From positions 1,054,001 to 1,118,000 of the forward strand of contig NZ_JABCNG010000001.1 in assembly GCF_012932495.1 (NCBI RefSeq): a stretch of 64,000 bases of DNA. Reading direction: 5' to 3'. Position 1 is the stretch's first letter. Each line of letters starts with the position of its first letter. Below, piece after piece: positions 37,729-59,657 of the stretch. A program made the position numbers and the translations under genes. The notes under the pieces are model-generated. The model saw nothing but the letters and a program-made list of their open reading frames with translations. It made no database searches and was not told the DNA's origin. The stretch is from Novosphingobium sp. SG919. GTDB lineage: Bacteria; Pseudomonadota; Alphaproteobacteria; Sphingomonadales; Sphingomonadaceae.

Positions 37729-38007
37729 GTACGGCGGGCTGAACGGCAGGTCCAACGCCAGTACCTGACGCTCGGCGTCTGACCTGGAGGGCCAAGATCG
37801 CGACCGTATATGGCCGTTAGGCGAGTGACAGGTCTTGGGTAGCTAACAGGGAAGAGCAGGCTTTCATTCAGATTGCTCAAGAGAAATGCCGCTGCGGATG
37901 GGTGCGGATCACACCCTGATCCATTTGAAAGATCGCATCTCGAGGGTTGAAAATCGGGGCATCCGGCCCCAGAACATATGGTGAATACCAGCCGTCAGGG
38001 GGACACC

Positions 38008-40946: not shown

Positions 40947-41410
40947 GGCTCGTCCTCCCGAGGGACGTCAGGGTGCGACTGCATAATGCCGTGAAGGCCG
41001 CGGGAGCCGTGGAGATAGGCGGCGTCCTCATGGCTGAGCAACTGGCGCCGGGAGAATTCTTGATCGTCGACTTCACCATCGACGCCCAGACCGGAGGCGC
41101 CGCCCACTTCGTTCGCTCCGTCGATGACCACAGGATCGCGCTGTCCGACTTCTTCGATCGCACCGGTTCCGACTTCAAGCGCTTCAACTACCTCGGCGAA
41201 TGGCACTCCCATCCCAATCATCCGCCGGTGCCAAGCTTCGAGGACGTGAGTTCGATGGAGAATCTGGTCGGAGGCGAACGGGACATCCCCTTCGCGATCC
41301 TTCTCGTGGTCCGGGTGCACTGGCGATGGCTCAGCCTCAGCGCCACGCTCTTCGAACAGGGTCTCGAACCGAGGCCTGTCACAATCGACATCGGCCCGGC
41401 CGCCGGCTAA
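40943..41410 (+). CDS. cap3: CBASS Cap3: JAB/MPN isopeptidase
   Basis: 155 residues from a TTG at 40943 that overlaps the Cap2 stop (TTGA). JAMM metalloprotease elements are present: Glu in '[15 protein letters not shown]' and His-x-His-x10-Asp in '[17 protein letters not shown]'. Cap3 removes the CD-NTase conjugates made by Cap2 and so restrains the system. The frame is open far upstream inside cap2 in another phase, which is why a longer frame could mislead. The TTG start fits the length of the family and the operon pattern. Confidence 0.9.
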
Positions 41411-41432
41411 ACTCAGAGCGCGAGAAGACAAG

Positions 41433-42581
41433 ATGTCCAAGACCTCAATTCCGCAGCGAATCCAGTCCGCCATCTGGGCTAGGTCTGGAGGTCGCTGCGA
41501 ATACCGTGGATGCAACGTCGACCTCGTGGGGGATTTGATCGCAAACAACGACGACGGCCTGTTCGGCTTCATCGCACATATCGTGGCGGACAGCCCGAAC
41601 GGTCCGAGAGGCGACGCGATACGCTCCCCGCTCCTGGCGGCGGATCTCAACAACCTGATGATCCTCTGTCACCGCCATCACAAGATAGTCGACGTGGACG
41701 AGAAGGACGCGCACACCGAGGAGATGCTCCTCGCCATGAAGGAGGAGCACGAGGCCCGCATCGCCACCAACACCGGCATTAGCGCGGAGTATGCATCCCA
41801 TGTGCTTCGCTTCGGCGCGACGATCGGCTCCAACGAGGCGCTGCTCTCGACTCAGGCCATCTTCGCCGCAATGCCGCCGCTGAGGCATCCGGCCACGCGG
41901 ACCACCATCGATCTCGAAATGATCAATCAGGCCGTCCGCGACAATGAGGAGGACTACTGGGCGATCCAGAGACGCAACCTCGATCGGCTGTTCGCCGAGA
42001 AGGTCCGTGGTCGCATCGAACGGCAGGAGATCAAGCACCTGAGCGTCTTCGCGCTCGCTCCCCAACCGTTGCTGATAGAGCTCGGCCGCCTTCTCTACGA
42101 CATCGTCCCGACGACGGTCCATCAGCGGCACCGAGAGCCGGAGACCTGGAACTGGCAGCGCGATCGGGATCCACTGGAGTTTGAGGTTTCGCGCCCGCCA
42201 GAAGGCGCGAAGGGACCTGTGGCTCTAAAGATCGCGGTAAGCGCCCACGTGAACGATGATCGCATCCACAGGGTGCTCGGCGAGGACACGGCCATATGGT
42301 CGATCACGGTGCACGACCCCGGCAATGACGTAGTCCGCCAGCCAGAAGATCTGTCCGCCTATCGCATTACGCTCAGGGCCCTCTACGAGGAGCTCCAGAC
42401 CCGCTACGGGGAGCAGACCCTGCTCCACCTCTTCCCAGCGATGCCTGCGTCGCTCGCGGTTGAGACCGGACGGGTCTGGATGCCGAAGGTCAACCTCGCG
42501 ATGCGAATCTACGACCACGTCCGCGACGTCGGTTTTGTCCCCACATTTATAATCGGAGAGTTGTCGAGCAACCTATCCTAG
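41433..42581 (+). CDS. cap5: CBASS effector Cap5 (HNH-SAVED)
   Basis: 382 residues. The N-terminal HNH endonuclease domain (about 1-110) shows '[10 protein letters not shown]' , '[15 protein letters not shown]' and '[13 protein letters not shown]', the Cys/His zinc and catalytic pattern. The C-terminal half (about 180-382) is a SAVED domain that senses a cyclic nucleotide; '[20 protein letters not shown]' lies in it. On binding the signal, Cap5 oligomerises and degrades double-stranded DNA, killing the infected cell. 22 bases after Cap3 in the same operon. This makes the cluster a type II CBASS with a nuclease effector. Confidence 0.93.
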
Positions 42582-43519: not shown

Positions 43520-44464
43520 CTAAGGTAGTTCTATCCCGAACGCGGCCGGGTTGATCGCCCTGAACCCGTCCCGCTTCGTCCACTCGAAATGTCCGCCCAG
43601 GCGTTCCACCAGAGCCCCGGCTTCTGCCCGCTCAAGGTTGACGGTCTTTAAGGCTTGCTTCGTAGTACGAAGATAGAGCACCGGTTGTGCGAGAATGTGC
43701 CCACTCGCCCGATCGAGCAGATCGGCAAGCATGACCACTTCGATTTCCTCAAGGGGGAGTATCGCGAGATACTCCAGCGCCACCCGCACGGCCGCCGAGC
43801 AGATGGCTTCACGATGCAACTCGTGTCGCCGCCCGATCGGAATAGCTTTTACCGAGGCCTTGCCAGACTTGAGCAGGGACACGCTCTGGTCGGGTATGTC
43901 TTCCAGATCCAGCCCCTCGACGACCGCGACCACGCGGCCGTCCATGAACAAGGTGTCCAGCCCCTCGACACTGAAGGGAAGGTCATCCAGCGAGGAATGC
44001 TGTTCAAGGGCCTCGACCATTGCGTCGGGCTCGAGCGCCATGACGCGCCGCGCGAAGCGGATACTGGCGTTATGGTCCTCCACTTCGCGCTTTCGCGCGA
44101 CATGCGCCTGATCGTCCGCGGCGCGTGCTGCGGCGACGGCGTCTTCGAGGGCCTGCCTGGCCCTTGCTTCGCGCTTAAGAACCCTGGTCACCCAACCAGG
44201 CTGATAATCCGCGGCCTTGCGCCGTGCCGCATCTTCCGTCGCCGAGGTCCGTTCCGGAACCGGAGCCTCGGACTTCGACGCAGTGGACGTCCAGTTCACA
44301 AGCGAGGGTGGCTTGCGGTGAGCGCCCGTCAAGGCCTCGATGATCTCGTCAAATTCTCTCGCTGCCTGTGCGGATGCATCGAGCATCGCTTCGCGTTGCA
44401 CGGCCTTCTGAAAGGCCACCCGACGGCGCTCGGCCTGCTTTGCACTACGATCCATTGCGCGCAT
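43520..44464 (-). CDS. Hypothetical protein with N-terminal coiled coil
   Basis: 314 residues. The first 110 residues are charged and helical ('MRAMDRSAKQAERRRVAFQK', 'RQALEDAVAAARAADDQAHV'), likely coiled coil. The rest is a mixed domain with 'PFSVEGLDTLFMDGRVVAVV' and a C-terminal 'GALVERLGGHFEWTKRDGFR'. No known catalytic motif is visible. I place the start at the ATG at 44464; the frame is open to 44611 but that part overlaps the nuclease gene region on the other strand. It is divergent from the thermonuclease gene over about 110 bases. Function unknown. Confidence 0.6.
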   Translation of the reverse strand: MRAMDRSAKQAERRRVAFQKAVQREAMLDASAQAAREFDEIIEALTGAHRKPPSLVNWTSTASKSEAPVPERTSATEDAARRKAADYQPGWVTRVLKREARARQALEDAVAAARAADDQAHVARKREVEDHNASIRFARRVMALEPDAMVEALEQHSSLDDLPFSVEGLDTLFMDGRVVAVVEGLDLEDIPDQSVSLLKSGKASVKAIPIGRRHELHREAICSAAVRVALEYLAILPLEEIEVVMLADLLDRASGHILAQPVLYLRTTKQALKTVNLERAEAGALVERLGGHFEWTKRDGFRAINPAAFGIELP

Positions 44465-44574
44465 CGTGCGAACAACACCGCGCGCGACTTGCCGGCTCGT
44501 AACCAAATATACCTCCAATGCGCCGCCAACTTTGCGTTGAACTATACTGCAACCGGGCGCAGAGCCTAAGGGAA

Positions 44575-45018
44575 ATGGGATACCTTCTTGCCATACTTGC
44601 TGCGTCCGCAATGGTCTCGGGACCGGCTATCGTGGTTGATGGCGACACGCTGAGGATCCAAGGCGAACGCGTGCGGATCGCCGGGATCGATGCACCCGAG
44701 CGCGCGCAATGGTGCGGGCGCAGACAGCGTGTGCCTTGCGGTCGCCTCGCTGCCCAATGGATGGAGCATCGAGTCGAGGGACGCATCGTGCGATGCTCGC
44801 CAAGCGGACGCGATCAATATGGGCGTCTATTGGCGACCTGCCGTGTCGATGGAACCGATATAGGCAGCGCTGCTGTGGAAGCTGGCTGGGCCATCGCCTA
44901 TCGCCGCTACAGCACTGCCTATGTCCTGCCGGAAAGCCGCGCGCGGCGCGCGGGACGCGGTCTTTGGGCGCTCGGCTTTCAAACACCCGAAGCGTACCGC
45001 CGGACGCACCGGCGCTAG
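44575..45018 (+). CDS. Thermonuclease (SNase-like) family protein
   Basis: 147 residues. A short hydrophobic start ('MGYLLAILAASAMVSGPAIV', residues 1-20) may be a signal or anchor. The SNase fold follows: 'VVDGDTLRIQGERVRIAGID' with the metal Asp and Arg, 'APERAQWC' with the catalytic Glu, and 'SGRDQYGRLLATCRVDGTDI' with the second Arg. Members cut DNA and RNA with calcium. The ATG at 44575 has AAGGGA upstream; upstream frame to 44518 is rejected. Such nucleases are common in the conjugative elements of alphaproteobacteria. It converges on the four-gene defence-like operon. Confidence 0.88.
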   Translation: MGYLLAILAASAMVSGPAIVVDGDTLRIQGERVRIAGIDAPERAQWCGRRQRVPCGRLAAQWMEHRVEGRIVRCSPSGRDQYGRLLATCRVDGTDIGSAAVEAGWAIAYRRYSTAYVLPESRARRAGRGLWALGFQTPEAYRRTHRR

Positions 45019-45021
45019 CGA

Positions 45022-46332
45022 TCAGCGCAGGCTCTTCGATTTCAGGCTGGGCATGCTGGCGCGCGCTTCATCGCCGTCCGGTGCAAGCGCGATGCGCTTC
45101 AACGGGACCGCACCAACGGGGAGAGCCCGTTCAATATGGAGCCCGCCGCCTTCGGCAGCCAAGGCCGACTGCAGCCGCGAGACATCGCCGCACCAGATCG
45201 TTTCGGCGTCACGGTCCCGTGCGGCATCGGGGCCAATGCCGCCGCGCTCGAACGCGACCGGCTTCATCTGAACCCGCTCACTACCGCTCACCTCCACACC
45301 ATAGTCGGGGCGCGCGCCGCTACGCAGCACGAGGCGGCCATCCGTGGCCCAGGCGGTCGCCATGCCTTCCGTAAGCTCATAGCCAAGTTCGCCGAGCGCG
45401 GACAGCAATGCGTCGCGGCTGGCCGCCACTGCAGCTGCGTTGCGGTGGTCCAAAAGAGCGGATTCTACTGCCGCAGTCTTCGATCTTGCCGCTTCTGTCG
45501 AAAGCGCCTCTACTGCCTCGAAACCTGCCTCGACATCCAGCCCCGCAACGCGCGCTTGCGCAATAATCGCGGTGAGGGCGGTCAGCGCTTCCTCGCGCTC
45601 GCGGGCTGCAGTCAGACTGCGCCCTGTCTCGATTTCCAGCGCATCGAGGATGAGGTGACGGCGTTCGCGCAGCGCCGACCGAGCCTGGGCGAGCCGGTCT
45701 TCCCAAACCTCGCGAACCGCGCCTGGGGCAATCTGGCGGATCTGCGCGATCCGGACCGATATCCTGGTGACGGCCGGATCGCGCTCTTCCTCGTGGGCAC
45801 TTGCCAACCAACCGGCAAACGAGGAGGAGCCTTCGTCGGTTTTGAGCCGGGAGGCGAGTTGACGATCGACGCCTTCGCGGGCCTTGGGCGCAAGGGCAAG
45901 CAGTGCGCGGCTCGTCGCGTCGGGGTCTCCACGCGCAAGACCCTGTTCGAGTTCGGGGTCGATCGGATTGCCGGAGTTGCGCAGCGCCGATAGCACGGCC
46001 GCCGATGCCTCGGCAGAACGGCGAGCCTTGGACGTGGCATCGGCCTGCGCTGCGGCGGCAGCAGCGAGCCGATGGTCGAGGTCGTCGCGCAGGAACTGTT
46101 CCTCCTGCGGCGCCTGTTTCTGCAGATCCATGAAACGATCAGCGGCAATGAGCGCTGCGAGTTTGTCACGGCGGCTCCGGGTTTGCGCGATGGCAGCGTC
46201 GTCCAGGCAATCGTTGCGCTGTCCGACCCGGATCCAGCGATCCAGGGCTGCGTCAACGCGCGCTAGATGCCCATGGCAAATGTCGATCAGTTCCTCGCGC
46301 GTGACGATCCGGACGACCTTGGGACCACTCAT
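45022..46332 (-). CDS. Coiled-coil protein, last gene of the AAA/rSAM/kinase-helicase operon
   Basis: 436 residues. Starts 'MSGPKVVRIVTREELIDICH', a conserved-looking N-terminus. Residues about 25-320 are almost wholly helical, rich in Ala, Arg, Glu and Asp, with likely coiled coils ('LRDDLDHRLAAAAAAQADAT', 'RHLILDALEIETGRSLTAAR'). A small C-terminal domain (about 330-430) seems beta-rich ('DGRLVLRSGARPDYGVEVSG'). No enzyme motif. Its ATG overlaps the stop of the giant upstream gene (ATGA), so it is translationally coupled to it and probably forms a complex with it. I do not recognise the family. Confidence 0.8.
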   Translation of the reverse strand: MSGPKVVRIVTREELIDICHGHLARVDAALDRWIRVGQRNDCLDDAAIAQTRSRRDKLAALIAADRFMDLQKQAPQEEQFLRDDLDHRLAAAAAAQADATSKARRSAEASAAVLSALRNSGNPIDPELEQGLARGDPDATSRALLALAPKAREGVDRQLASRLKTDEGSSSFAGWLASAHEEERDPAVTRISVRIAQIRQIAPGAVREVWEDRLAQARSALRERRHLILDALEIETGRSLTAAREREEALTALTAIIAQARVAGLDVEAGFEAVEALSTEAARSKTAAVESALLDHRNAAAVAASRDALLSALGELGYELTEGMATAWATDGRLVLRSGARPDYGVEVSGSERVQMKPVAFERGGIGPDAARDRDAETIWCGDVSRLQSALAAEGGGLHIERALPVGAVPLKRIALAPDGDEARASMPSLKSKSLR

Positions 46333-49300
46333 GACCGTACTCCCATTGCGTCCTGAATAGCGCTGTGCAGTCTCGCGCGCTCGATGGCTGGCTCATGGTG
46401 CCACCGATGCGACGATACGCGGTGAATGACCGGGATCGACCGCCGCAACACCGCAGGCCGCCACATCTCTCGGGCCCTGGCATGGGCGAGCAGGGGATCG
46501 CGCGGTGCGTCGCACTCGATGCCAATCCCGTAGAGTCCCGTGCGCGGGTCTTCGATCGCGAAGTCGAGACCGAAAGCACCTTCCTCGTTCACCGGTGAAG
46601 GTTCCCAGCCAAGCGAGCGGATTTCCTCTGCCACCGCTTCCTCTAGTCCGTCCTGGAGCTTGTCCTGTTGCGCGCCGCTGCGTTGCTCGGGCGTCAATCG
46701 TGCGAGCAGGGCCTGCGCTGCATCAAGCTCGCCTTCCGAAATACAACGGGCGTATTCGAAGTAGGCCTGGAGATAATCGCGCGGCGAACTTGCCTGGCGG
46801 CGGGTCGACAGGAGGTCCGAAATCAGCGGCACCGGCATCGAGGTTACCAGCAATACCTTCTGCCGCGCACGGGTCACGGCAACATTCAGGCGCCGCTCGC
46901 CGCCGGCCTGGCCGAGCACACCGAAGAAGCGGCGGAACGTCCCTTGCGCATTGCGGCCAAAGGTCGACGAGAACACGATCACATCGCGCTCGTCACCTTG
47001 CACATTCTCCACATTCTTCACGAAGAAGCCCATATCCTCGCCGCCTTCGACCCGGTCGCGCTCCCGCGAGATCGCCTGGCGGAAGGCGACATCCTGTTCG
47101 GCGAGATCTTCGAGGACCTCCTCGATCAGGTCGGCCTGCTTGCGATTGAAGGTCACCACACCGACGGTCGGGATTGGCCCTTTGGCTTCGAGCCAGATGC
47201 GTCTCAGGCTGGAGGCAACCATCTCGGCTTCGGCCCGGTTGGTCTGGTCCTCATAAACCCCGTCGGCACGCAGAACTTCAATCGGGCGGATCCGGCGAAT
47301 CTCGTCTGCAGGATGGCGAGCAGGAACGCTCAGCTTGTTGACGTAGAACGACGCGTTCGAGAACTGGATGAGTTCGCGATAGGCGGAGCGATAATGGATC
47401 TGCAGTGTGGTGGGCGGCAGGACCGTCTTCGCCAGTTGGAGCAGGTCCGGGCAATCCTTGATCTCGCGGCGGTTCCAGGTCTCCGAAACGGTCTCGCGCT
47501 CTTCTTCCCCGAGCTCCTGCTCAGCGTCCTGGCCTTCGTAGACCTCGGCTTCGTCGCTTTCCACTCGGCTCGTGAAGAAGGCCGTCGGCGGCATCTGCTT
47601 TTCGTCGCCCGACACGATCATGTTGCGGCTGCGATAGAGTGTGGGCAGCGCATATTCGATCGGCATCTGCGATGCCTCGTCATAGATGACCGTATCGAAC
47701 AAGGTCTTGCGCAAGGGAAGCAAGCGGCTCGCGACGTCGGGATTGACCAGCCAAACCGGGCGCAACTGCATCAGCCCGAGGTCGGCCCCCCTGTCTACAA
47801 ATTCGCGCAGGCGCTTGGCACGCTGGCCGCGCAGGCGCGTGATGTCCTCCCACTCGCGCAGCGGCCGCAATCGGCTTGCGTCAAAGCCTTCTACCAGATG
47901 GCGCCGGTTGAGCGCGCGCATCTCAAGATCAGCCTGGGCCAGCGACTTGGCCTTGGCCTCCAGTTCGTCCGCTTCAAGCAGCAGCACGGGATGCTCACTT
48001 TCGAGGCGGTTCTTCCAGGCAAGCCGCGCCTCGGTCGCGATGATGCGACGAACGGTGGGCTCCAACTCAGGCGGGGACAGGCCCTCCAGTCTTTGCCGAA
48101 TGCGGGACAATTCGGCAAAGATCGCCATCGCCTGCGCATCAAGCTGCGCAACGCGTGGACGGAAACGCTGATAGGCGGCAACGCTCGGCAGCGCATCCCT
48201 GATCGCGGCAAGGCGCGCCACGTTGGAAGCATCGCTTCGGACTGCGGCCAGGACTTCGCCGACCCATTCCTCCTCCATCCATAAGCGGAGGCGCTCGAGC
48301 AGCGCATACGATGCGGCGCGCGCGGTGTGCCGCGCCAGCCCCTGCTCAATTCCATCCATCAAATCCTCAACCGCCGAGCGGGTGCATGCGCGCGCCATCG
48401 CGAACGCCGTGCCATGCTCGGGATAGGCCTCAAGCCGCGCGACAAGCCCCTCGGCATGGGAGAGTGCCTTCAGGAGCGCCCGGCTGTGTTCGACAAGCTC
48501 CGGCACGCGCAGGCCTGCAAGAGAGCCTGAAGGCTCGCCGAGGTCGACGGTCAGCTCCGCCAGACGATCCCGGATCGGGCGCAGGCGCTGTTCGCGATGC
48601 AGCGCCGCATCGAATGCACCCGCATCGTCCAGCCCATTTTCGGCCAGGAAGCGCGCGCGCCGTCGTGACGCCATCCAGCGCGAGGGTGACAGTCGCTCAA
48701 GGAAGCTGGGCTGCCGCATGAGCCTGCCGGAGAGCTCGATCCAGTCGGTCAGATCCTCTTCCGAAAGGGCCTGCGTGATCGCAAGAGCGTCTGGCGCTGC
48801 GTCGTCGGCGGGAAGTCCGAGCAACGCGGCTTCCACCTCGTTGATGTTCTGGTGCGTGGTCGTCGACTGGGGCGACCGGCCACCCGCACCCGAAAGCCGG
48901 TCAAGCCAACGCGAAAGCCATTCACGCTCGCTCTCATCCAGATTCAGAAACGCGGCGCTGTGCTCGCTCGTCCAGCGGCGGTAGGGCTCTGGGTCGTCGA
49001 TGGCGAGTGCATCTGGCGTGCGCTCGATGACTGCGTCGCGCTCACGCTCTGCGGCGGAAAAAGCAAGGAAGTCAGTCCCGAACGCGTCAACAGTGCCTGC
49101 ATCGGCCGCAAAAGCCTTGGTACGCGCCAGTGCGCTTCCCTCATATAGCGCTGGCAGCCAAAGCCGTGCGAGCGGTGCGCATGTCTCGACCAGCGACGCG
49201 AGACTGCCCGGGTTTTCATCTGCCAGACGCTGGCGCAGCGATGGCAGCGCTGGCGTGTCGCCCTCGCGCGCAAGGCGAACGAGTTCGCCCAGGATCAAAC

Positions 49301-52300
49301 GGTAAGACTGGCCGGTGGCCGGATCCTCGGCATGCAAGGCTGCGTGATAGGCATCGAGCTCATGCTCGAGAACCTCGATCCGGCCCGCGATCTGTTGGCG
49401 CTGCTGGCGCAGCAGCTGGGCGCCGCCCGGTCGGCGGAACAGTTCCTCGAGCTGCTCGCGGACCGCCCGAATGACCGGCTCGCGATCCTTGTTCACGTCA
49501 TTGACCATGACCACGCGATTGCCGAGGCCGGCAGCGTCGAGGCGTTTGTGGACCACTTCAAGGGCGGCCTGTTTCTGGCAGACCACGAGCAGGCTTCGCC
49601 CCGTTCCGATGGCGTCGGCAACCATGTTGACGATGGTCTGGCTCTTGCCCGTCCCCGGTGGTCCCTCGACCAGCAGCCCGCGACCGGTCCTTGCCTCCAG
49701 GACGGCGGCTTCCTGCGACGGGTCGCTGTCGGCGGTGAAGAAGCGGTCGATCTCGGCGACGGACTTGGGCTCGGGCCGCTCCACGCTTTCACCGACGCGA
49801 AACGCCGTCTCAAGACTCGTACCGGCCGGTGGCAGCGCCTTGAGCTGCCGCAGATCTTCCATCACCGCCTGGCCGAGGAACCCCAGATGGAACAGCGCGG
49901 CACTGCAGTGGACGCGGTCCTCGCCGGGCCGAATTCGCAGATCCTTCGAGGGCAGGGGGCTAAGCGAACGCTGTGCCACGTCCGCGAAGTCGCGGAACGC
50001 TTCAACCACTTCGGCGGCCCTGATACTGGCGCGCGCAAGCAGCGCATTCGCCTTCTCGCGCCACGCAGCCGCCTGATCCATGCCGAGCAACGTCTCGAAT
50101 GCCGGGTTCAACCGCACTTCTTCGCGGTCGCGATCGAACGACAGCGAAATCCGTCCTCTAGCGCCCACTTCCGGCACAAGCCTGACGGGCCACAGGAGAA
50201 TAGGCGCAATGCGCGGCCGCGTCGAAGCACGGGCCTCCTGCATGACGAGAAAGGGAAAGCCCAGGTACAGGCCGTCGATGCCGGTATCGCGCCGATAAAG
50301 CGTGGCGTGCCCGTGCAGGGTCCGAAGCCGACGCTCGAGGCGCGGATCCTGTGTCAGGGGCGCTGGATCGATCGTGATGGGCTGGTCGTTGCGCAGCAGG
50401 ACATGGTCCAGAAGCTCGGCCGCCGTGCGCCGGTCACTGTCGAGCTCGGCGAGATCGACGCGGGCTGTCGTCTTGCCGATCACCATGCGGGTTAGCGGCC
50501 CGCGCATCACTGCCCCCGTGATGCGCCGGGCGAAAAAGTCGAGCAGTGTCGCGACATAGGCCTGACGCGGGGGCTGCTTCCATTGGTCCTGAGGTACGGA
50601 CAGCAGCGCCAGCGTGCGAACGACCGGGAGCCTGCGTTCAAGACGGAACTGGTCCGCCCATTCATCAATGCGGTCGATGCCGCAGCGCGCGAAGCCTTCG
50701 ACGCGGGCGTCGATCTGCGCGAACAGTGTGCCTGGCGACGCGGTCAATCGATCCCGTGCTTCCGTACGGTCGAACTGCGCAAGCCCGGCGCGCCTTGCGG
50801 CGGCCTCGGCTTCATCGAGGATGGCATCTGCACTGCGAAACTGCGATGCCGCTGCCGCCAGAAGCAGGATAAAATCCTCCTCCTCGGTGATCTTGCGCTC
50901 GATGATCGCGAGCAAGCCCGGATGGTCCGTATCGGGAAGGATCTGGCGCTGCTCTTCCCACAAGGCGGCGAGCCGGCTCTTCGAGGTCGAGAGCACCAGC
51001 ACGCGCAGCTTTGTTTCGTCGAGCTCCACTTCGAGATGGCGCGCGCGCTCCCGCACGCGTGCCTCTCGGCGCTTGAGGCGTGCCAGCCAGAGCTCGTCGT
51101 CCTCGCGCTCCAGTCGATCCGGGACCGGCCCCGTGATCAGCGCATAACCTTCCTCCGGATTCTCGATCAACCACCCCGGTGTGATGATCTCACCGCGGAC
51201 CACCAACGGCATCGCGGGATTGAGCGTCTTGAGTGCGAGTGCATGCCGGATGTCAGGCGACACCTGCTCCAGCACCGCGATTTCGCGCACCTGGGCCCGC
51301 AGGTCGGGATGCAGACCTGCCTCTTCCATCCAGGTCAGGAGATCGCCCCGCAGCAGCAGGGTCCGTGCTTCGTCCCATTGGGCCGGATCGGCGGCTGCCA
51401 AGGCATACTGGGCTGGCCCCAAAAACCGTCGTCCGCCAAGCGTGATCGCGCGCCCGGCGGTGTCGTCGTCATAGGGCGAGCGTCGGCCGGGCGCCTCGGG
51501 TGCCCCGCCCGAGAGCCATTGCTGAACCTGATCCCATCCCCAGCGAAGGCGCCGGTCCGGGGCAAGCAGTCCGCGCAACAGCAAATCCACGCGCGGATCC
51601 AGGTCGTCCGGGATCGGCGCGCCGTTGGTAAGAATGCTGATCAGGAAGGACTGGTCGTCCGCACCCGCAAAGCAGGCACCCCGTGTCACCTGCTCCAGGA
51701 TGATCATCCCCAGGCTCCACCAGTCACTGGCGGCAGCGACACCGCCAGCGACCGCTTCTGGTGCAGTGTAACGGGTAATCTCGAGAGGCGAGACGATGTC
51801 CAGGTCATAGTCGGACAGGCGCGCCGAGCCGAACCCGCTGATCACCAGGTCCAGCGGCTCGCGCGTGCGCACCATGATCGCGGCTGGCGAGAGATCACGG
51901 TGACGAAGGCCGCATTCGGCGAGGGCGGCCAGCGCACCGCCGATCTCTTCTACGATCCGTCCAAGCGTTGCGGGGTCGTCGGCAAGCAAACCAATATCAG
52001 CAAAGCTGCCGCCGCGCAGATCCTCCGAAACCTCATAGACGCGGTCGCCAAATCGACCCGTCTCGATCACTTCCGGCACATGGTCGCGGTCCAGTGTCGC
52101 CAGAACCTCATAGACTTCCGGATCGGGTTCGCTGCCTTGCGCATAGAGAACCACGATCGCCTTTCGCCCGTCCCTGGTGCGTTCGGCCCCGTAGCGTTCC
52201 TGGACATGGCTGCCGGTCTCGATGCGTCGCAGCAGCGTCCACTCACCAATGACGGTCGGCGCCGCAGGCGCCGAGTCTGCCGGATCGGACCCGCTGATCG

Positions 52301-52601
52301 CCGCGGGTTGATTAGCGTCGACAGGCGATCCAGGCGCCGTCGTGACGAGCGCAGATGTGTCTGCGTCGGCCCCGCATTCCGGGCAAATCAGGTCACCAGG
52401 CTCCAGCGCGTGGCCGTTGAGGCACTGGATTGCTTCTGGCAAAGGAGCGGGGGGCACCGCTGCCGCATTTGGGCGCCAGCCTTCCGCCCGCAGCGGAAGG
52501 CTGGAGAGATCCCAGCCGCAAGGTTGGCCGTCGTGCTCGCCCTCGCAGAACATCTCGTCCAGCGAACGCTCAGTTTGACAGTTGGGACAGAAGCGGATCA
52601 T
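46329..52601 (-). CDS. 2,090-residue Zn-ribbon / protein-kinase-like / SF1 helicase / REase fusion
   Basis: Domains in order: zinc ribbon (Cys 5, 8, 19, 28); a second Cys-rich knuckle (about 60-75, 'HALEPGDLICPECG'); a Ser/Thr-kinase-like domain (about 115-370) with 'GLRHRDLSPAAIMVR' but GFG where DFG should be and no clear beta-3 Lys, so possibly a pseudokinase; a long middle region; an SF1 (Upf1-like, COG1112-type) helicase with Walker A 'VEGPPGTGKSQTIVNM' (about 980), Walker B 'YDEASQMPIEYAL' (about 1640) and C-terminal 'RRLNVAVTRARQKVLLV'; and a C-terminal MTES-type restriction-endonuclease fold 'GLDFAIEDPRTGLYGIGIECD' (about 2000-2040), with Asp, Glu and Asp present. The start at 52601 overlaps the radical-SAM stop. 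The nearest described relatives I know are kinase-helicase Mokosh proteins (MkoA), but the partners differ. Confidence 0.85.
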   Translation of the reverse strand: MIRFCPNCQTERSLDEMFCEGEHDGQPCGWDLSSLPLRAEGWRPNAAAVPPAPLPEAIQCLNGHALEPGDLICPECGADADTSALVTTAPGSPVDANQPAAISGSDPADSAPAAPTVIGEWTLLRRIETGSHVQERYGAERTRDGRKAIVVLYAQGSEPDPEVYEVLATLDRDHVPEVIETGRFGDRVYEVSEDLRGGSFADIGLLADDPATLGRIVEEIGGALAALAECGLRHRDLSPAAIMVRTREPLDLVISGFGSARLSDYDLDIVSPLEITRYTAPEAVAGGVAAASDWWSLGMIILEQVTRGACFAGADDQSFLISILTNGAPIPDDLDPRVDLLLRGLLAPDRRLRWGWDQVQQWLSGGAPEAPGRRSPYDDDTAGRAITLGGRRFLGPAQYALAAADPAQWDEARTLLLRGDLLTWMEEAGLHPDLRAQVREIAVLEQVSPDIRHALALKTLNPAMPLVVRGEIITPGWLIENPEEGYALITGPVPDRLEREDDELWLARLKRREARVRERARHLEVELDETKLRVLVLSTSKSRLAALWEEQRQILPDTDHPGLLAIIERKITEEEDFILLLAAAASQFRSADAILDEAEAAARRAGLAQFDRTEARDRLTASPGTLFAQIDARVEGFARCGIDRIDEWADQFRLERRLPVVRTLALLSVPQDQWKQPPRQAYVATLLDFFARRITGAVMRGPLTRMVIGKTTARVDLAELDSDRRTAAELLDHVLLRNDQPITIDPAPLTQDPRLERRLRTLHGHATLYRRDTGIDGLYLGFPFLVMQEARASTRPRIAPILLWPVRLVPEVGARGRISLSFDRDREEVRLNPAFETLLGMDQAAAWREKANALLARASIRAAEVVEAFRDFADVAQRSLSPLPSKDLRIRPGEDRVHCSAALFHLGFLGQAVMEDLRQLKALPPAGTSLETAFRVGESVERPEPKSVAEIDRFFTADSDPSQEAAVLEARTGRGLLVEGPPGTGKSQTIVNMVADAIGTGRSLLVVCQKQAALEVVHKRLDAAGLGNRVVMVNDVNKDREPVIRAVREQLEELFRRPGGAQLLRQQRQQIAGRIEVLEHELDAYHAALHAEDPATGQSYRLILGELVRLAREGDTPALPSLRQRLADENPGSLASLVETCAPLARLWLPALYEGSALARTKAFAADAGTVDAFGTDFLAFSAAERERDAVIERTPDALAIDDPEPYRRWTSEHSAAFLNLDESEREWLSRWLDRLSGAGGRSPQSTTTHQNINEVEAALLGLPADDAAPDALAITQALSEEDLTDWIELSGRLMRQPSFLERLSPSRWMASRRRARFLAENGLDDAGAFDAALHREQRLRPIRDRLAELTVDLGEPSGSLAGLRVPELVEHSRALLKALSHAEGLVARLEAYPEHGTAFAMARACTRSAVEDLMDGIEQGLARHTARAASYALLERLRLWMEEEWVGEVLAAVRSDASNVARLAAIRDALPSVAAYQRFRPRVAQLDAQAMAIFAELSRIRQRLEGLSPPELEPTVRRIIATEARLAWKNRLESEHPVLLLEADELEAKAKSLAQADLEMRALNRRHLVEGFDASRLRPLREWEDITRLRGQRAKRLREFVDRGADLGLMQLRPVWLVNPDVASRLLPLRKTLFDTVIYDEASQMPIEYALPTLYRSRNMIVSGDEKQMPPTAFFTSRVESDEAEVYEGQDAEQELGEEERETVSETWNRREIKDCPDLLQLAKTVLPPTTLQIHYRSAYRELIQFSNASFYVNKLSVPARHPADEIRRIRPIEVLRADGVYEDQTNRAEAEMVASSLRRIWLEAKGPIPTVGVVTFNRKQADLIEEVLEDLAEQDVAFRQAISRERDRVEGGEDMGFFVKNVENVQGDERDVIVFSSTFGRNAQGTFRRFFGVLGQAGGERRLNVAVTRARQKVLLVTSMPVPLISDLLSTRRQASSPRDYLQAYFEYARCISEGELDAAQALLARLTPEQRSGAQQDKLQDGLEEAVAEEIRSLGWEPSPVNEEGAFGLDFAIEDPRTGLYGIGIECDAPRDPLLAHARAREMWRPAVLRRSIPVIHRVSSHRWHHEPAIERARLHSAIQDAMGVRS

Positions 52602-53242
52602 GCGGCAAATCGTCCCGGCATGTCGGAGGTGACGACCGTGTGGCCGGCTGCGGCCAGCGCACGGCGAAGCTTTGCCAGGTCTCCGCGCGCCGGAATGCCG
52701 GCCATCCACGCTGCGCCATCCGCATCGATCATGATGTCGAGTTTCAGATCGGAGCCTGTCGCGTTGCGTTCATAAGCCAGGAAGGGAGCGCCTCGTTGCG
52801 TGAGCACATGGAGTGCCTGATTGTCGCTGCCGCGAAGTGCCTTTGTCTGCGGAAGGTCGGAACGAAATGGACCGGTTATGAGCGCGTCGATGAGGTCCGG
52901 ATGGGCGTCGAGCCAAGGTTGAATCTGGCCCAGTTCGAGGCCGGTGAAGACCAGCACGGACCGATCTGAAATGCTTCGCCATGCGGCGAGGAGCTCGGCC
53001 AGGGCTTCGGGCTGTTCGAACGGTTCACCGCCCGACACAGTCAAGCCGTCGGCGTCGGCGGCGAAGGCTGACAACTGGTCAATCACTTGTCCGGTATTCA
53101 CGGCGCCTTCGTCATGGGCCCAGGTATCCGCCGAGATGCAGCCTGGACAATGCAGGCTACAGCCCTGGAACCACAGCCCGACGCGGCGCCCGTGCCCAAG
53201 GGCAGTGACAGGGAAATGCACACGTGACAGGAACATGCGCAT
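52598..53242 (-). CDS. Radical-SAM activase-like protein (4Fe-4S single-cluster type)
   Basis: 214 residues. The cluster motif is Cys-x3-Cys-x2-Cys at 28, 32 and 35 in 'FQGCSLHCPGCISADTW', and 'DADGLTVSGGEPFEQPEALA' has the GGE motif of radical-SAM enzymes. The size and layout resemble NrdG/pyruvate formate-lyase activases that make a glycyl radical or modify a protein. No ribonucleotide reductase or formate-lyase gene is nearby; instead it sits inside a defence-like operon, where the target is probably a neighbouring protein or nucleic acid. Translationally coupled on both sides: TGATG after the AAA+ gene and ATGA with the giant gene. Confidence 0.85.
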   Translation of the reverse strand: MRMFLSRVHFPVTALGHGRRVGLWFQGCSLHCPGCISADTWAHDEGAVNTGQVIDQLSAFAADADGLTVSGGEPFEQPEALAELLAAWRSISDRSVLVFTGLELGQIQPWLDAHPDLIDALITGPFRSDLPQTKALRGSDNQALHVLTQRGAPFLAYERNATGSDLKLDIMIDADGAAWMAGIPARGDLAKLRRALAAAGHTVVTSDMPGRFAA

Positions 53243-55065
53243 CAGGCCGCCTCCAGCGTAAGCGTCGTGCTCGCGTCATGCACAAGCTTGGTGATCCGCA
53301 CCGGACCCTCACCATCGCGCTCGAACAAAGCCCGGGCGAGGGGATTGATGAGATGGGCCTCGATCTTGTTGCGAATCCCGCGACCACCATTGGAGAGATC
53401 GGCGATACACAGTGCGCGCAAGGCCTCCAGCGCTTCGGTGCTGATCTCGATCGACTGACCGGCAGACTCTGCGTCTGCGCAGACGCTGCGGACCATGGCG
53501 TCGAAGATCTGGTTGCCCACCTCGGGCCGGATGAAATCGAAGACGATCACATTTTCGCCAAAGCGATTGAGGATCTCCGGACGGTTCAGCACGAGCTTGA
53601 AGTGGTTTTCGATGCCTTCGCGGACCCGCGCCTGAACTTCGGCAAAGGGTTGGGCCGGTGTAACATTGGCCCGACGCTCGCCATCCGGCCCGGTCGTATA
53701 GATGCCGAGATTTGAGGTGAAAATGATCAGCGCTTCGGAAAAATAAACGCGATCGCCGCGCCCCGAGGTCAGGACACCATCGTCGAGAATCTGCAGGAAC
53801 TTGTCGAGAATGCGTGGATGCGCCTTCTCGATTTCATCGAACAGCACCACGCTGAATGGCTTCTCGCGGACCGCGTTGGTGAGTTCGCCGCCGACGTCAT
53901 ATCCGACATATCCGGGTGGGGCACCGATCAGGCGCTGGTCGGCATGTTCGGCGCTGAACTCCGACATGTCGAAGCGGATATAGGCACTTTCGTCGCCGAA
54001 CAGCAGTTCGGTCATCGACTTGGCAAGCTCAGTCTTCCCGACGCCAGTCGGACCCGCCAGAAATGCGATGCCGCGCGGACGATTGCCGCGCCGTGCACCG
54101 CCAATCCCGGTCGCCGCGCGCTTGACGATGTCCAGCATGTGCGTGACGGCATGGTCCTGCCCCACGACCCGCTTGCGGATGCTGTCGGCGCCATCAAGGA
54201 TCGTGCGACGTTCGATCTTGCGCCAGGCATCTTCGGTCACGCCAACCTTGTAGCGGCGCACTGCTTCGCCGATCGAGGATACATCGACCTGCTCGGCGCG
54301 TCCGAGCTGGACGACAGCGTTCAGGTCCATCAGCAGCATGCCCTCGGTCGCATCGACCAGGCTCTGTTTTGCCTCAAGGAGCACCATTTCGCTCGCATCC
54401 CGCCCGCCGGGCATTGAGCGCACAAGGGATGGCGCCACGGTGCTGCGCGCGGCACGGTCGGGCGTCGCAACGGGGATGTGGCGCAGGCGCGGATTGTCGA
54501 TCAGCAGCCAGTCCGGCAGGTCGCCTTCCTTCTCGGCCACCCAGATGATGGAATTGAAGCGCGGGGCGCGCTCGGGGCCGACAGGCCGGGCTTGGGCGCT
54601 CTGTGCCAGCACCAGCGCCCGCGTGAAAAGAGCGTGCTCGGCGGCCGACAGGGCATCGCTGCGCACGACAAGCCGCGATGCAAAGTCAACGATGAGCGCC
54701 ATGGGTGCGCCGTCGAGTTCCGTGTGGCGCTGCAGCGTGGTTGCCAGGAGATCGATACCACCGGCCGCCTTGCCGCTCGTGGGTGAAAGGCCGAGCCGGA
54801 CCAGTGCTTCATCCGGGTCGCGCCCACTTGTGGCAGCACCAAGATTGGAGAAACCGCCGACCGGATCGTACCGCAGCACATCTTCATAACCTGCCTGGCC
54901 CAAGGCATCAGCCAGTACATCGCCCAGCGAAGCGGCAAACGCCTTGTCGCCCTCAGCGCGGATTTGAAGATCGCGGACATTGCCGGTGAGCACGAACTGG
55001 CTCTTGAGCGGCAGGAAACGCAAGAGGTCGCGCACCCAACGGGGACGCAGGTCTGCTCCGGTCAC
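53242..55065 (-). CDS. ClpB/ClpA-like AAA+ ATPase
   Basis: 607 residues from a GTG at 55065 with AAAGGAAC upstream; another GTG at 55098 is possible. The C-terminal half is a class II AAA+ module: Walker A 'FLAGPTGVGKTELAKSMTEL' (about 340), 'DQRLIGAPPGYVGYDVGGEL' pore-loop region (Tyr-Val-Gly), Walker B 'VVLFDEIEKAHPRILDKFLQ' (about 409), sensor and ClpB D2-small domains ('IADLSNGGRGIRNKIEAHLI'). The N-terminal half (about 1-280) has no Walker A and resembles a diverged ATPase-like domain ('KSQFVLTGNVRDLQIRAEGD'). It should thread or remodel a protein substrate. First gene of the four-gene operon and overlaps the radical-SAM start. Confidence 0.9.
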   Translation of the reverse strand: MTGADLRPRWVRDLLRFLPLKSQFVLTGNVRDLQIRAEGDKAFAASLGDVLADALGQAGYEDVLRYDPVGGFSNLGAATSGRDPDEALVRLGLSPTSGKAAGGIDLLATTLQRHTELDGAPMALIVDFASRLVVRSDALSAAEHALFTRALVLAQSAQARPVGPERAPRFNSIIWVAEKEGDLPDWLLIDNPRLRHIPVATPDRAARSTVAPSLVRSMPGGRDASEMVLLEAKQSLVDATEGMLLMDLNAVVQLGRAEQVDVSSIGEAVRRYKVGVTEDAWRKIERRTILDGADSIRKRVVGQDHAVTHMLDIVKRAATGIGGARRGNRPRGIAFLAGPTGVGKTELAKSMTELLFGDESAYIRFDMSEFSAEHADQRLIGAPPGYVGYDVGGELTNAVREKPFSVVLFDEIEKAHPRILDKFLQILDDGVLTSGRGDRVYFSEALIIFTSNLGIYTTGPDGERRANVTPAQPFAEVQARVREGIENHFKLVLNRPEILNRFGENVIVFDFIRPEVGNQIFDAMVRSVCADAESAGQSIEISTEALEALRALCIADLSNGGRGIRNKIEAHLINPLARALFERDGEGPVRITKLVHDASTTLTLEAA

Positions 55066-55811: not shown

Positions 55812-56741
55812 ATGGATACTCGAGCGAACGGGCAGCGCACGGCGGCGCGTCGGAACATCTATGCCGAAATCACGCAACGGATCTTGTCCGAGCTGGAAGC
55901 GGGGAGAGTGCCCTGGGTCCAGCCTTGGGCCGGCAGCGTCGCGCCGGTCGGCATGCCGTACAATGCCGTCAGCGGACGACGATACAGCGGGATCAATGTG
56001 CTCAGCCTGTGGCATGCAGCTGCAGAGCGTGGTTTTGCCGGGCACGGCTTCCTGACCTTCCGGCAAGCGCGAGAACTGGGCGGCAGCGTCCGACGCGGCG
56101 AGACGGGCATCGAGATTGTCTACACCCGCCGGATTGCTTCCCGCGACGAGCGGCAGTGCGCCGCCGACGAAGGCCGCGAGGCAAGGGCCACCATTCCCTT
56201 TCTGCGCCACTTCACGGTCTTTTCCGTCGATCAATGCGATGGCCTGCCTTCCACCATGGCAAGCGAGCGGCCACCGTCCGACCCTCAGTTGATCGAGCCG
56301 GCGGCAAACGCGCTGATCTGCGCGACGGGCGCTGATTTCCGGGTCGGTGGGCCGAGTGCATTCTACAGCCCGATCCATGACTATGTTCAGGTCCCCCGGC
56401 CGGAGGACTTCTTCGAGCCCATCAACTGGCACCGCACCGCATTTCACGAGCTTGCCCATTGGAGCGGGCACGGGTCCCGTCTTGCGCGTAACCAGAGCGG
56501 CGCGTTCGGATCCGCTGACTATGGCCGCGAAGAACTGGTCGCGGAAATGGCAGGTGCTTTCGTTTGCGCCACGCTCGGCATCCGGCCTACCGTTCGGCAC
56601 AGCGACTACCTCGGCTCGTGGCTCAGCATCCTGCGCGAGGACAATCGCGCGATCCTTCGGACCGCTAGTGCCGCCTCGCGGGCCGCTGATTATCTCCTCG
56701 GCTTCCGAAAGGACGACCTCGGCAAAGGAGGCGTTTCGTGA
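55812..56741 (+). CDS. ardC: ArdC-like antirestriction protein
   Basis: 309 residues. The N-terminal ArdC-N (DUF1738) domain binds single-stranded DNA ('NIYAEITQRILSELEAGRVP', 'LWHAAAERGFAGHGFLTFRQ'). The C-terminal half is a zincin-like metallopeptidase: 'HRTAFHELAHWSGHGSRLAR' has the HExxH motif, and 'ELVAEMAGAFVCATLG' the downstream Glu. ArdC proteins protect incoming DNA of conjugative elements from restriction. The ATG at 55812 begins the family N-terminus. It overlaps the next gene by GTGA. Placed at the leading edge of the element core, as in other alphaproteobacterial elements. Confidence 0.92.
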   Translation: MDTRANGQRTAARRNIYAEITQRILSELEAGRVPWVQPWAGSVAPVGMPYNAVSGRRYSGINVLSLWHAAAERGFAGHGFLTFRQARELGGSVRRGETGIEIVYTRRIASRDERQCAADEGREARATIPFLRHFTVFSVDQCDGLPSTMASERPPSDPQLIEPAANALICATGADFRVGGPSAFYSPIHDYVQVPRPEDFFEPINWHRTAFHELAHWSGHGSRLARNQSGAFGSADYGREELVAEMAGAFVCATLGIRPTVRHSDYLGSWLSILREDNRAILRTASAASRAADYLLGFRKDDLGKGGVS

Positions 56742-57539: not shown

Positions 57540-59657
57540 ATGGCAAAAGCCGTACAGAAGATTACCCTCAGCCCCTCGCGCGACATCCCGCTCGACCGGC
57601 TGATCCTGTCACAGGCCAATGTGCGCCGGATCAAGGCTGGCGTGACGATTGGGGAACTGGCCGAGGACATTGCCCGCCGCACGCTGCTGCAGAGCCTCAA
57701 CGTGCGGCCGATCCTCGATGCGGACAATCAGGAAACCGGCATGTTCGAAGTGCCGGCGGGCGGCCGCCGGTTCCGCGCGCTTGAGCTGCTGGTCAAGCAG
57801 AAGCGGCTGGCGAAGGATGCGCCGGTGCCTTGCGTGGTCCGGTCCCCATCCGACGAGGTTTCGGCGGAGGAGGACAGCCTCGCCGAGAATACATTTCGCG
57901 AACAGCTCCATCCGCTCGACCAGTTTCGCGCCATGCAGGCGATGGTCGACAAGGGCGCCGATGTGGAAGCCATTGCCGCGCATTTCATGACCACGCCGGC
58001 GGTGGTGCGCCAGCGTCTCAAGCTCGCCTCGGTCTCGCCCAAACTGCACGAGGTCTATGCCGAAGACGGCATGACGCTGGAGCAGCTCATGGCCTTTTCG
58101 GTCAGCGACGACCATGCGCGGCAGGAGCAGGTCTGGGAACTGCTGACCCACAGTTTCAATAAATCCGCTGGCTATATCCGGGCACGACTGACCGAGAACA
58201 GCGTGCGCGTGGCCGACAAGCGGGTTCGCTTCGTGACGCTCGATGCCTATGTCGAAGCAGGCGGCGGCGTCATGCGCGACCTGTTCGAGGATGACGATGG
58301 TGGCTGGCTCACCAACCCGGCGCTTCTCGATACGCTCGTCGCGGCCCGGCTTGAAGCCGAAGCCGATCGCATCCGTGCCGAAGGCTGGAAGTGGGTGGCG
58401 ACGGCGGTCGATATGCCCTGGAATGCTGCTGCTGGGCTTCGTGAACTTGCCGGGACCACTGTCCCGATGAGCAGCGAGGAAGAAGCGCGGATGCAGACGC
58501 TGCAGGCCGAGGCCGAAGCGCTGGAAAGCGAATGGGCGGATGCACCGAGCCTGCCTGACGAAATCAGCGCGAAGCTCGATGCTCTTGACCGGGAACTGGG
58601 TCTGCTGGTGGACCGCCCGCAGACCTTTGACGCCGAGGACGTCGCCCGCGCGGGCACGTTCCTGTCCATCGCCAGCGATGGCTCGCTGATCATCGAGCGC
58701 GGCTACGTGAAACCGGAGGATGAGCCGGCTGACGAGGTCGAGGAAATTGCCGGTGTCGACCGGTGCGAGAGCGAAACCAGCGGTAAGGGCATGTTGTCTG
58801 GACCGGACGAGACTGCGATGCCCGGCGGCGCGCGTGAGCAGGAAGCAGAGGTCGAGGACGAAGTGGTCAAGCCGCTTCCGGACAGGCTCGTGGCCGAGCT
58901 TACCGCCTGGCGGACGCTGGCCCTGCAGGATGCGCTTGCGCGTGACCCGGCGACGGCCTTCGTCGCGGTGCTGCATGCCTTTGTCCTCGACGCCTTCTAC
59001 CCGTCGAGCCGGGAAACCTGCCTGCAGATCACGCCCAACCGGGCGTCGTTCGCGTTTGCGCCCACCGATCTCAAGGATAGCGGCCCGGCCCGGGCGATCT
59101 CCGAGCGCCACACGCAGTGGAAGGCTCGGCTCCCGCAATCGGATCGCGATCTTTGGGACGCCCTGCTGCGCCTCGACAATGCGCAGCAGTCCGCGCTCTT
59201 CGCCCATTGTGTCTCGCTCGTGCTCAACGCCCAGGCTGAAGTCGTCCCCAAGTACGACAATGGGCGGGTCTCGCGTCACAGCATCGAACGGCGTCTCGAG
59301 CACAGCCATGTTCTGGCACGAACCCTTGGCCTGGACCTTGTGGCGGCAGGCTGGCGGCCGACTGTCACCGGCTATTTCCAGAGCGTGACCAAGCCAAGGA
59401 TTCTTGCCGACGTGTGCGACGCCCGCGGGTCCCAGTTCGCAGAGATGATTGCCCATCTCAAGAAGCCCGACATGGCCCGCGAGGCCGAACGGCTGCTGGA
59501 GGAGGCAGGCTGGCTACCGGAGCCGATGAGGACGCCGGGGGCAGGCAAGGTCTTCTCGAATGGCGACGTGATCGATGCGCTCCCCGCATTCCTCGAAGGG
59601 CCGGTGTTGCCGACCGATGACGCCGACTGCGACCATTACGCGATCGCGGCGGAATAG
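57540..59657 (+). CDS. ParB/RepB/Spo0J-family protein of the element
   Basis: 705 residues. The N-terminal ParB nuclease/CTP-binding domain (about 15-125) shows 'LILSQANVRRIKAGVTIGEL', 'EVPAGGRRFRALELLVKQKR' and 'LAENTFREQLHPLDQFRAMQ' (the Glu-Asn-x2-Arg-type motif). The HTH follows (about 135-190, 'IAAHFMTTPAVVRQRLKLAS'). The C-terminal 450 residues are a poorly defined acidic and helical extension, much longer than in chromosomal ParB. This long type is typical of integrative conjugative elements and some plasmids, where it takes part in partition or regulation. No ParA gene is next to it. GGAG precedes the ATG. Confidence 0.92.
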   Translation: MAKAVQKITLSPSRDIPLDRLILSQANVRRIKAGVTIGELAEDIARRTLLQSLNVRPILDADNQETGMFEVPAGGRRFRALELLVKQKRLAKDAPVPCVVRSPSDEVSAEEDSLAENTFREQLHPLDQFRAMQAMVDKGADVEAIAAHFMTTPAVVRQRLKLASVSPKLHEVYAEDGMTLEQLMAFSVSDDHARQEQVWELLTHSFNKSAGYIRARLTENSVRVADKRVRFVTLDAYVEAGGGVMRDLFEDDDGGWLTNPALLDTLVAARLEAEADRIRAEGWKWVATAVDMPWNAAAGLRELAGTTVPMSSEEEARMQTLQAEAEALESEWADAPSLPDEISAKLDALDRELGLLVDRPQTFDAEDVARAGTFLSIASDGSLIIERGYVKPEDEPADEVEEIAGVDRCESETSGKGMLSGPDETAMPGGAREQEAEVEDEVVKPLPDRLVAELTAWRTLALQDALARDPATAFVAVLHAFVLDAFYPSSRETCLQITPNRASFAFAPTDLKDSGPARAISERHTQWKARLPQSDRDLWDALLRLDNAQQSALFAHCVSLVLNAQAEVVPKYDNGRVSRHSIERRLEHSHVLARTLGLDLVAAGWRPTVTGYFQSVTKPRILADVCDARGSQFAEMIAHLKKPDMAREAERLLEEAGWLPEPMRTPGAGKVFSNGDVIDALPAFLEGPVLPTDDADCDHYAIAAE

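Follow-up and report, generated by a model that had tools for sequence, protein, structure and literature searches.

A predicted four-gene mobile system of Novosphingobium sp. SG919 that combines a radical-SAM enzyme and an Hsp100-like motor with a helicase–nuclease

A 64,000-nucleotide stretch of the Novosphingobium sp. SG919 genome (contig NZ_JABCNG010000001.1, positions 1,054,001 to 1,118,000; hereafter, the window) contains a compact operon at 45022-55065. It encodes an Hsp100/ClpB-like AAA+ protein (gene 1), a small radical S-adenosylmethionine (SAM) protein (gene 2), a giant helicase–nuclease with a kinase-like domain (gene 3, the giant) and a helical protein starting with the residues MSGPK (gene 4). 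The features are collected in Table 1. A preliminary description of the locus, made from the nucleotide sequence alone, had proposed four leftward genes overlapping by 1, 4 and 4 bases, and this was confirmed, the four minus-strand frames being open, directed leftward and overlapping stop-to-start. The junction between genes 1 and 2 reads ...GCCTGATGCGC... and the overlap there is one base; the junctions of gene 2 with the giant (...GCATGATCC...) and of the giant with gene 4 (...TCATGAGTGG...) have overlaps of four bases each. The domain calls of that description agree with the Pfam matches to AAA_2, Fer4_12, Pkinase, DUF4011, AAA_11/AAA_12 and MTES_1575, the Zn-ribbon match of the giant being below the Pfam cut-off. 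The four genes are predicted to travel together as one mobile system.

Table 1. Genes, domains and motifs of the operon (coordinates in the window)
Feature	Position	Strand	Details
Gene 1, Hsp100/ClpB-like AAA+	53242..55065	-	607 aa; GTG start after AAAGGA; AAA_2 E 1.7e-44
Degenerate first AAA-like ring of gene 1, ~residues 9-275	54241..55041	-	limits approximate
D2 motor domain of gene 1, residues 332-584	53314..54072	-	motif and Pfam basis
Gene 2, small radical-SAM protein, NrdG/PFL-activase type	52598..53242	-	214 aa; Fer4_12 4.6e-25
CX3CX2C [4Fe-4S] motif of gene 2 (C28, C32, C35)	53138..53161	-	invariant, 26/26 rows of A2
Gene 3, giant: Zn ribbon, (pseudo)kinase, DUF4011, SF1 helicase, MTES nuclease	46329..52601	-	2090 aa
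Kinase-like domain of the giant, Pfam match residues 165-361	51519..52109	-	Pkinase 2.2e-15
DUF4011 of the giant, residues 752-839	50085..50348	-	5.9e-12
SF1 (superfamily 1) helicase core of the giant, residues 960-1921	46839..49724	-	AAA_11 5.3e-14, AAA_12 3e-18
MTES_1575 endonuclease domain of the giant, residues 1987-2082	46356..46643	-	2e-15
Gene 4, helical protein with C-terminal alpha/beta domain	45022..46332	-	436 aa
N-terminal MSGPK tip of gene 4	46318..46332	-	start conserved among listed relatives
Invariant Cys381 of gene 4 (WC motif)	45190..45192	-	120/120 listed

The species-genome collection was scanned with the radical-SAM protein alone, and the best 80 of 103 relatives were kept as loci. 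All four genes are present in the same order and orientation in 15 of these 80 loci (L002-L016, including L007, whose contig ends within the fourth gene), and a gene order that recurs so often argues that the grouping is not due to chance. Among the carriers are Sphingobium, Neomegalonema, Methylobacterium/Methylorubrum, Duganella, Zoogloea, Providencia, Proteus, and Verrucomicrobia, four bacterial groups in all, and the same four genes were found on a Rhizobium plasmid. Conservation of the order beyond close relatives, from Proteobacteria to Verrucomicrobia, had been named as a check in the preliminary description and is thus established. The four proteins co-diverge: their distance matrices correlate with Mantel r of 0.917-0.979, values that none of 2000 permutations reached (15 taxa, namely the window and 14 loci; L007 and L082 were left out).

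Occurrence of the system is sparse. Two separate whole-genome draws, each including the window's genome and with two candidates scored per genome, were searched for the giant at E<=1e-250. From the order, 3 of 396 genomes carry it; from the phylum, 4 of 398. It is single-copy in the window's genome, and no match to it was seen in the 20 same-genus genomes listed. A full-length gene 1 protein was found in one of 385 genomes of the class, which is the window's genome (three candidates scored per genome). All five other carriers in the whole-genome draws keep the order AAA–radical SAM–giant, and four of them have the fourth gene; one carrier (G604) has the same DNA as L002, and another (G950, locus L171), with an interrupted giant and the fourth gene not found, looks like a decayed copy. 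A cyanobacterial metagenome-assembled genome (L017) has AAA–radical SAM–giant on a short contig; this copy also looks decayed, with a stop inside the radical-SAM frame. Residue conservation in genes 1 and 2 was assessed in chosen subsets of loci without near-duplicates and L042, namely A7 (25 rows) for gene 1 and A2 (26 rows) for gene 2; A2 is additionally without L017, on account of the stop, and L082. A further subset, A3, is without L007, L011, L015, and L016.

The motor encoded by gene 1 had been described as ClpB-like, which is right for its second, ClpB-D2-like AAA domain (D2). The ClpB chaperone itself was ruled out, as the ClpB model TIGR03346 (cut-off 1232 bits) scores 252 bits and matches residues 258-584 only, and the first ring has no Walker A. 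The D2 domain has Walker A (GPTGVGKT, 338-345), a pore loop (GYVG, 385-388) and Walker B (DEIEKA, 410-415), in the conventional nomenclature of Clp motifs; Walker A and the pore loop (GY[VI]G) are kept in 25/25 relatives. The AlphaFold model (predicted local distance difference test, pLDDT, 86.6) has ClpC, ClpA, and ClpB as best folds in PDB, with E down to 6.3e-30, a TM-score to the query of 0.41-0.56 and alignments of ~620-750 columns (ranges not printed). These alignments are too long for one ring; hence a first AAA-like ring was read in the N-terminal half, and a Walker A of the form [AG]xxxxGK[ST] is absent from residues 1-250 in 25/25 relatives. The earlier call is thereby corrected to an Hsp100-like protein whose first ring has no Walker A, and gene 1 reads as a predicted substrate-threading Hsp100 with a dead first ring.

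In gene 2, the cysteine motif, GS.NQ and the two glycines of GGE show no change in any of the 26 rows, and at least 90% of rows share the Glu of that last motif. The nearest solved structure to the gene 2 profile is the PFL-activating enzyme 8fo0 (E 8e-17). Assignment to NrdG proper was rejected, the score for TIGR02491 (79.6 bits) being under its cut-off of 126.1. PFL-activating enzymes and NrdG generate glycyl radicals, which are destroyed by oxygen. In the six carrier genomes tested, all of them proteobacterial, neither Gly_radical (PF01228, 0/6) nor NRDD (PF13597, 0/6) was found; control searches recovered these two families in 3/14 and 6/14 known genomes, respectively, E. coli among them. 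Gene 2 is the sole strong match of its own profile in 6/6 of these carriers, one of which has a second match at 20.9 bits. Gene 2 therefore resembles the NrdG and PFL-activating enzymes in its CX3CX2C and GG(E) motifs and in its sequence family, but differs in lacking a glycyl-radical client in the six carriers; it appears to be an activase-type enzyme without a textbook client in these six genomes.

The helicase and nuclease motifs of the giant are conserved: helicase Walker A GPPG[TS]G and Walker B DEASQ are kept in 17/17 giants, as is the nuclease pattern D...EC[DE]...R[ED].WR. The kinase-like domain, proposed previously, does give a Pkinase match, but its catalytic set is incomplete. In the conventional nomenclature of kinase motifs, the window's domain has no beta-3 Lys, no HRDxxxxN Asn and no DFG Asp, and of the four catalytic residues it keeps the HRD Asp alone. 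In a comparison of 20 sequences, from which L171 was omitted for its broken giant and L172 for being identical in DNA to L002, the complete set was present in three giants, all Verrucomicrobial (L012, L013, L016), and in none of the 17 others. As three of the four catalytic residues are missing, the window's domain is a predicted pseudokinase, of which an apparently intact form exists elsewhere.

The gene 4 protein gave no Pfam, PADLOC, NCBIfam or PDB sequence match. It has 654 homologs among 7998 candidates scored, of which the best 120 were listed; the best 120 of 479 homologs were listed likewise for a second, Firmicute-type family, described below. Among the 120 listed relatives of gene 4, 115 start with MSGPK, three with VSGPK (read as GTG starts), and two with MSSSV, the start also seen in Providencia/Proteus. 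Conservation peaks at residues 1-12 (mean identity 0.98), and the block around the WC motif comes second (373-384, 0.94). The AlphaFold model (pLDDT 84.3) comprises a strand at residues 5-10, long helices and the C-terminal alpha/beta domain. The ‘coiled-coil protein’ of the preliminary description is thus better described as a conserved core part of the operon, marked by its MSGPK start and its invariant cysteine. Of six ATG/GTG-SGPK-type sites in the window's genome, only that of gene 4 is the first start of a long frame; a second site, with GTG, is followed by 135 residues but has an in-frame start before it, and the remaining ones are followed by no more than 59 residues. The gene 4 protein is the third constant component of the system and is likely a scaffold.

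The AAA and radical-SAM genes also form a wider module, occurring together in 29 of the 80 radical-SAM loci. Outside the four-gene group, their neighbors resemble PP2C, kinase and Zn-ribbon genes (judged by eye from the N-termini; annotated for one case). A different helical protein, again starting with MSGPK, is encoded at L024, L026, L046, and L057, and on an Aristaeella plasmid (L083). Open reading frames (ORFs) starting with MSGPK were found in 15/29 radical-SAM loci with AAA, in 0/51 without AAA and in 0/80 viral ClpB-like loci; outside the four-gene group they occur in 4/14 AAA-bearing loci, against 0/51 without AAA. Of the 120 listed members of the Firmicute-type family, 105 have annotated MSGPK starts, seven have MSGPK a few residues in, four have MSEPK, and the other four, three of them shortened, show no MSGPK in the residues printed. 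A plasmid version of the module, with the order helicase–PIN nuclease–helical protein–AAA–radical SAM, is present in Moellerella, Leisingera, Acinetobacter, Polaromonas, and Photobacterium (L084, L085, L087, L179, L180); its helical protein has no MSGPK. The two further helical families have an invariant cysteine each (Cys366 in 120/120 listed Firmicute-type proteins, Cys333 in 5/5 of the plasmid family). By a shared C-terminal pattern the three helical families are likely homologous, though their profile comparisons are weak.

The helicase of the L084 plasmid, the only one of the five scanned, matches MkoA with 340.5 bits and has no Pfam kinase domain. On the Aristaeella lactis plasmid, a cassette on one strand (L083:3170-21032) comprises a DUF4011 helicase, two kinases, the MSGPK protein, an FHA/Zn-ribbon protein, the radical-SAM protein, AAA, PP2C, and a DUF6273 protein, the stand-alone DUF4011 helicase scoring 1308 bits with the PADLOC candidate PDC-S37. 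Since AAA, the radical-SAM protein and a gene-4-like protein recur both with helicase and PIN nuclease and with a DUF4011 helicase, a helicase with a nuclease is a recurrent effector. A Geminocystis plasmid (L086:4613-15977) encodes an AAA relative (31% identity) and a 4Fe-4S protein on one strand, ~9 kb apart with hypothetical genes between them; it was not counted as a clear case.

The set had been suspected to lie outside the named systems, and we found it in no entry of PADLOC (2023) or NCBIfam (2026), nor in the accessible literature (preprints and most subscription papers were outside reach). The preliminary description had set out two findings that would speak against it, namely the four genes within a named system or an order confined to close relatives; neither was made, as the order is kept in distant relatives and no named set in the sources searched contains the four. 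The helicase–nuclease half belongs to a known type of effector. Its residues 953-2086 match PDC-S37 (profile positions 288-1342 of 1550) with 492.9 bits in a library without cut-offs, and residues 947-2085 match ProA (NF058533). The giant was not assigned to ProA, its 493 bits standing against a curated cut-off of 1500, nor to Hhe (NF042953; 337.4 bits in NCBIfam against a cut-off of 2000, and 231.3 bits with PADLOC Hhe), although Hhe is named a DUF4011 protein and the giant also has DUF4011. Compared with PDC-S37, ProA, and Hhe, the giant adds an N-terminal Zn ribbon and a pseudokinase, and has three constant partner genes.

MkoA of Mokosh combines a kinase-like and a helicase part in one polypeptide, and the likeness to Mokosh that had been pointed out persists in the helicase: the best of three matching stretches covers profile positions 790-1077 of 1112 (PDLC03920, 154.7 bits). 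PDC-S37, ProA, and Hhe are nearer to the helicase–nuclease half. According to a table in PMC10952713, phospholipase D (PLD) belongs to Mokosh types I and II. No PLD family matched any of the four proteins at E<=0.1; as no PLD-like domain is present, the MkoA match is partial and PDC-S37 scores higher (492.9 bits), the operon was not assigned to Mokosh, over which it has the radical-SAM protein, the Hsp100 and the scaffold as extra parts. A ClpB-like AAA+ protein in a defense or candidate defense operon is also known from Dodola (DolB) and PDC-M37B, to which gene 1 scores 64.8 and 95.3 bits. Both match only part of its D2 region, DolB over profile positions 114-278 of 375. The partner of DolB is DolA; no DolA match was found among the four proteins, and Dodola was rejected for this reason and because of the partial DolB match.

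The vWA–MoxR ternary conflict systems are described as modular, with kinases, FHA and PP2C, and one mention of a peptide-modifying radical-SAM protein (eLife 2020, PMC7159879). In contrast to these, the four proteins have no vWA family match and the AAA of gene 1 is of the ClpB type. With Mokosh, ProA, Hhe, Dodola, NrdG, ClpB, and viperin all tried and none of them fitting, the system is judged new and its function is a predicted one. In the libraries and literature searched, the arming module of radical-SAM enzyme, Hsp100 and MSGPK protein is undescribed, and the coupling of a glycyl-radical-type activase to a protein unfoldase is in no named defense system.

The neighborhood of the operon in the window agrees for CBASS, SPARSA and Fic with what had been claimed for it, being a defense island with a type II cyclic-oligonucleotide-based antiphage signaling system (CBASS, 37978-42578), a short prokaryotic Argonaute–SIR2-APAZ (SPARSA) system (32517-35776), and SoFic (30803-32014). 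Convergent with the operon is a staphylococcal-nuclease-like gene (44518-45015); upstream is an ArdC antirestriction gene (55812-56738), and a 705-aa protein that looks ParB-like by eye and has no Pfam match is encoded at 57540-59654. Given these three genes, an integrative element may be the setting of the operon. An Olokun pair was found upstream of the Sphingobium copy (L002:3090-6700; OloA 385.8 bits, OloB 684.9 bits), with a CagX conjugal-transfer gene at 77-781 of the same locus, and GajB lies beside L006. The sparse occurrence, the plasmid copies and the defense island of the window fit a mobile defense system, and defense is probably the role of the predicted system.

We propose that the radical-SAM enzyme and the ClpB-like unfoldase license, via the MSGPK protein, a helicase–nuclease destroying invading, probably phage, nucleic acid; this is a tentative proposal, with a probability of roughly 0.45. 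The parts and their motifs are observed, while the links between them are what we infer, the client of the radical-SAM enzyme within the operon being the strongest. As the family of this enzyme activates proteins, and as it is an orphan activase with the usual glycyl-radical enzymes absent from the six carriers, it is simplest to assume that its client is encoded in the operon. The enzyme would modify a protein of the operon, most likely that of gene 4, chosen for the extreme conservation of its N-terminus and cysteine and its company with AAA and the radical-SAM protein. The Hsp100 motor might then pull on the scaffold or on a scaffold–giant complex, whereby the giant would be freed or assembled; the pseudokinase and the Zn ribbon may sense or dock, and the helicase and nuclease would act on foreign DNA or RNA, the presumed purpose of the whole being defense. 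In a bolder form, which we consider improbable, the MSGPK protein would be a new kind of radical-SAM client, namely a small, non-enzymatic-looking switch with the SGPK tip and the invariant cysteine in one C-terminal domain, where an orphan glycyl-radical activase would modify them or turn them into a glycyl/thiyl-type radical. The Hsp100 motor would recognize the scaffold so altered and fire the helicase–nuclease; radical chemistry would in this way arm an immune system, and bacteria from Proteobacteria to Firmicutes would employ the arrangement with several effectors.

Several observations weigh against this proposal. The structural matches of the gene 4 protein, all of them weak, pair its N-terminal strand with the C-terminal domain; as the strand is predicted to pack in this way, MSGPK may be kept for folding or docking rather than for modification. 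Gly3 is replaced by Glu in 4/120 listed Firmicute-type relatives and is absent in Providencia and Proteus, and with such replacements in a few lineages it is not obligatory. The giant's helicase half was matched in only 2 of the 14 wider AAA–radical-SAM loci (L017, L026) within the stretch fetched, and the Aristaeella cassette looks like phospho-signaling. The viral scan showed no viral-contig copy of the system among the matches listed. The flanks of the four-gene relatives (14 loci, 106 ORFs) have few PADLOC matches, with one each to GajB, OloA, OloB, and IetA among the 25 of 62 families listed, and their Pfam families (25 of 67 listed by count) are mainly metabolic, transport and regulatory. 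These tallies cover 106 of 134 ORFs, since 26 of L082 and two at contig ends were left out, and none comes from L007. The neighborhoods of the relatives thus argue only weakly for defense.

Part of this evidence would be expected if AAA, radical-SAM protein and scaffold were a housekeeping-like phospho-signaling module for stress or proteostasis that regulates an endogenous helicase–nuclease, e.g., in DNA repair. The PP2C, FHA and kinase genes at the Aristaeella locus, the 12 of 14 wider loci without a helicase match in reach and the character of the listed flank families all point that way. We regard such a role as unlikely, given the sparse occurrence, with no match in the same-genus genomes listed, the carriage on plasmids and the defense neighbors in the window, L002, and L006. 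The operon could also be a single-protein defense of the Hhe, ProA or PDC-S37 type (DUF4011–helicase–MTES nuclease), with the other three genes as dispensable accessories; the scores of the helicase–nuclease half with PDC-S37 and ProA, and the much higher one of the Aristaeella helicase with PDC-S37, speak for it. This is distinctly less probable, as the scores are far below the NCBIfam cut-offs of 1500 and 2000 bits, the four genes co-diverge, and AAA, the radical-SAM protein and a gene-4-like protein recur with different effectors.

The plasmid copies, ArdC near the window's copy and CagX in the flank of L002 would suit an operon that is cargo for element maintenance and excludes competitor elements, not phages. 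The 25 of 67 flank Pfam families listed for the 14 loci include nothing related to transfer, so that carriage on conjugative elements is not general, and we consider this role very improbable. Most doubtful of all is the possibility that the radical-SAM enzyme makes a small antiviral molecule, as viperin does, the remaining genes being the sensor. Radical-SAM enzymes are a known antiviral chemistry, and prokaryotic viperins place them in an immune setting; viperin structures match the gene 2 profile weakly, at the superfamily level (E 5.2e-4), and the L084 radical-SAM protein has a weak pVip match (5.6e-6, 24 bits). But gene 2 belongs to a different radical-SAM family, its profile being nearest to the protein activases (the PFL activase and NrdG), and a viperin identity was rejected for the window's protein, which matched no PADLOC family, pVip included, at E<=0.1.

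If the proposed licensing of the helicase–nuclease is true, protein-directed radical chemistry and Hsp100-driven remodeling would be further means by which an immune nuclease is armed. A client would also be gained for a class of orphan activases that, like the plasmid matches, now carry the annotation NrdG or ‘4Fe-4S single cluster protein’. The MSGPK protein is a clean handle on the system, being one small protein with one conserved tip and one invariant cysteine.

Elsewhere in the window, the type II CBASS looks complete, with a SAVED–HNH effector, and the SPARSA system consists of SIR2-APAZ and a short prokaryotic Argonaute. Two proteins near these defense genes (664 aa, 28719-30710; 362 aa, 43520-44608), unmatched in PADLOC and Pfam at E<=1e-5, are candidates for further unknown systems.

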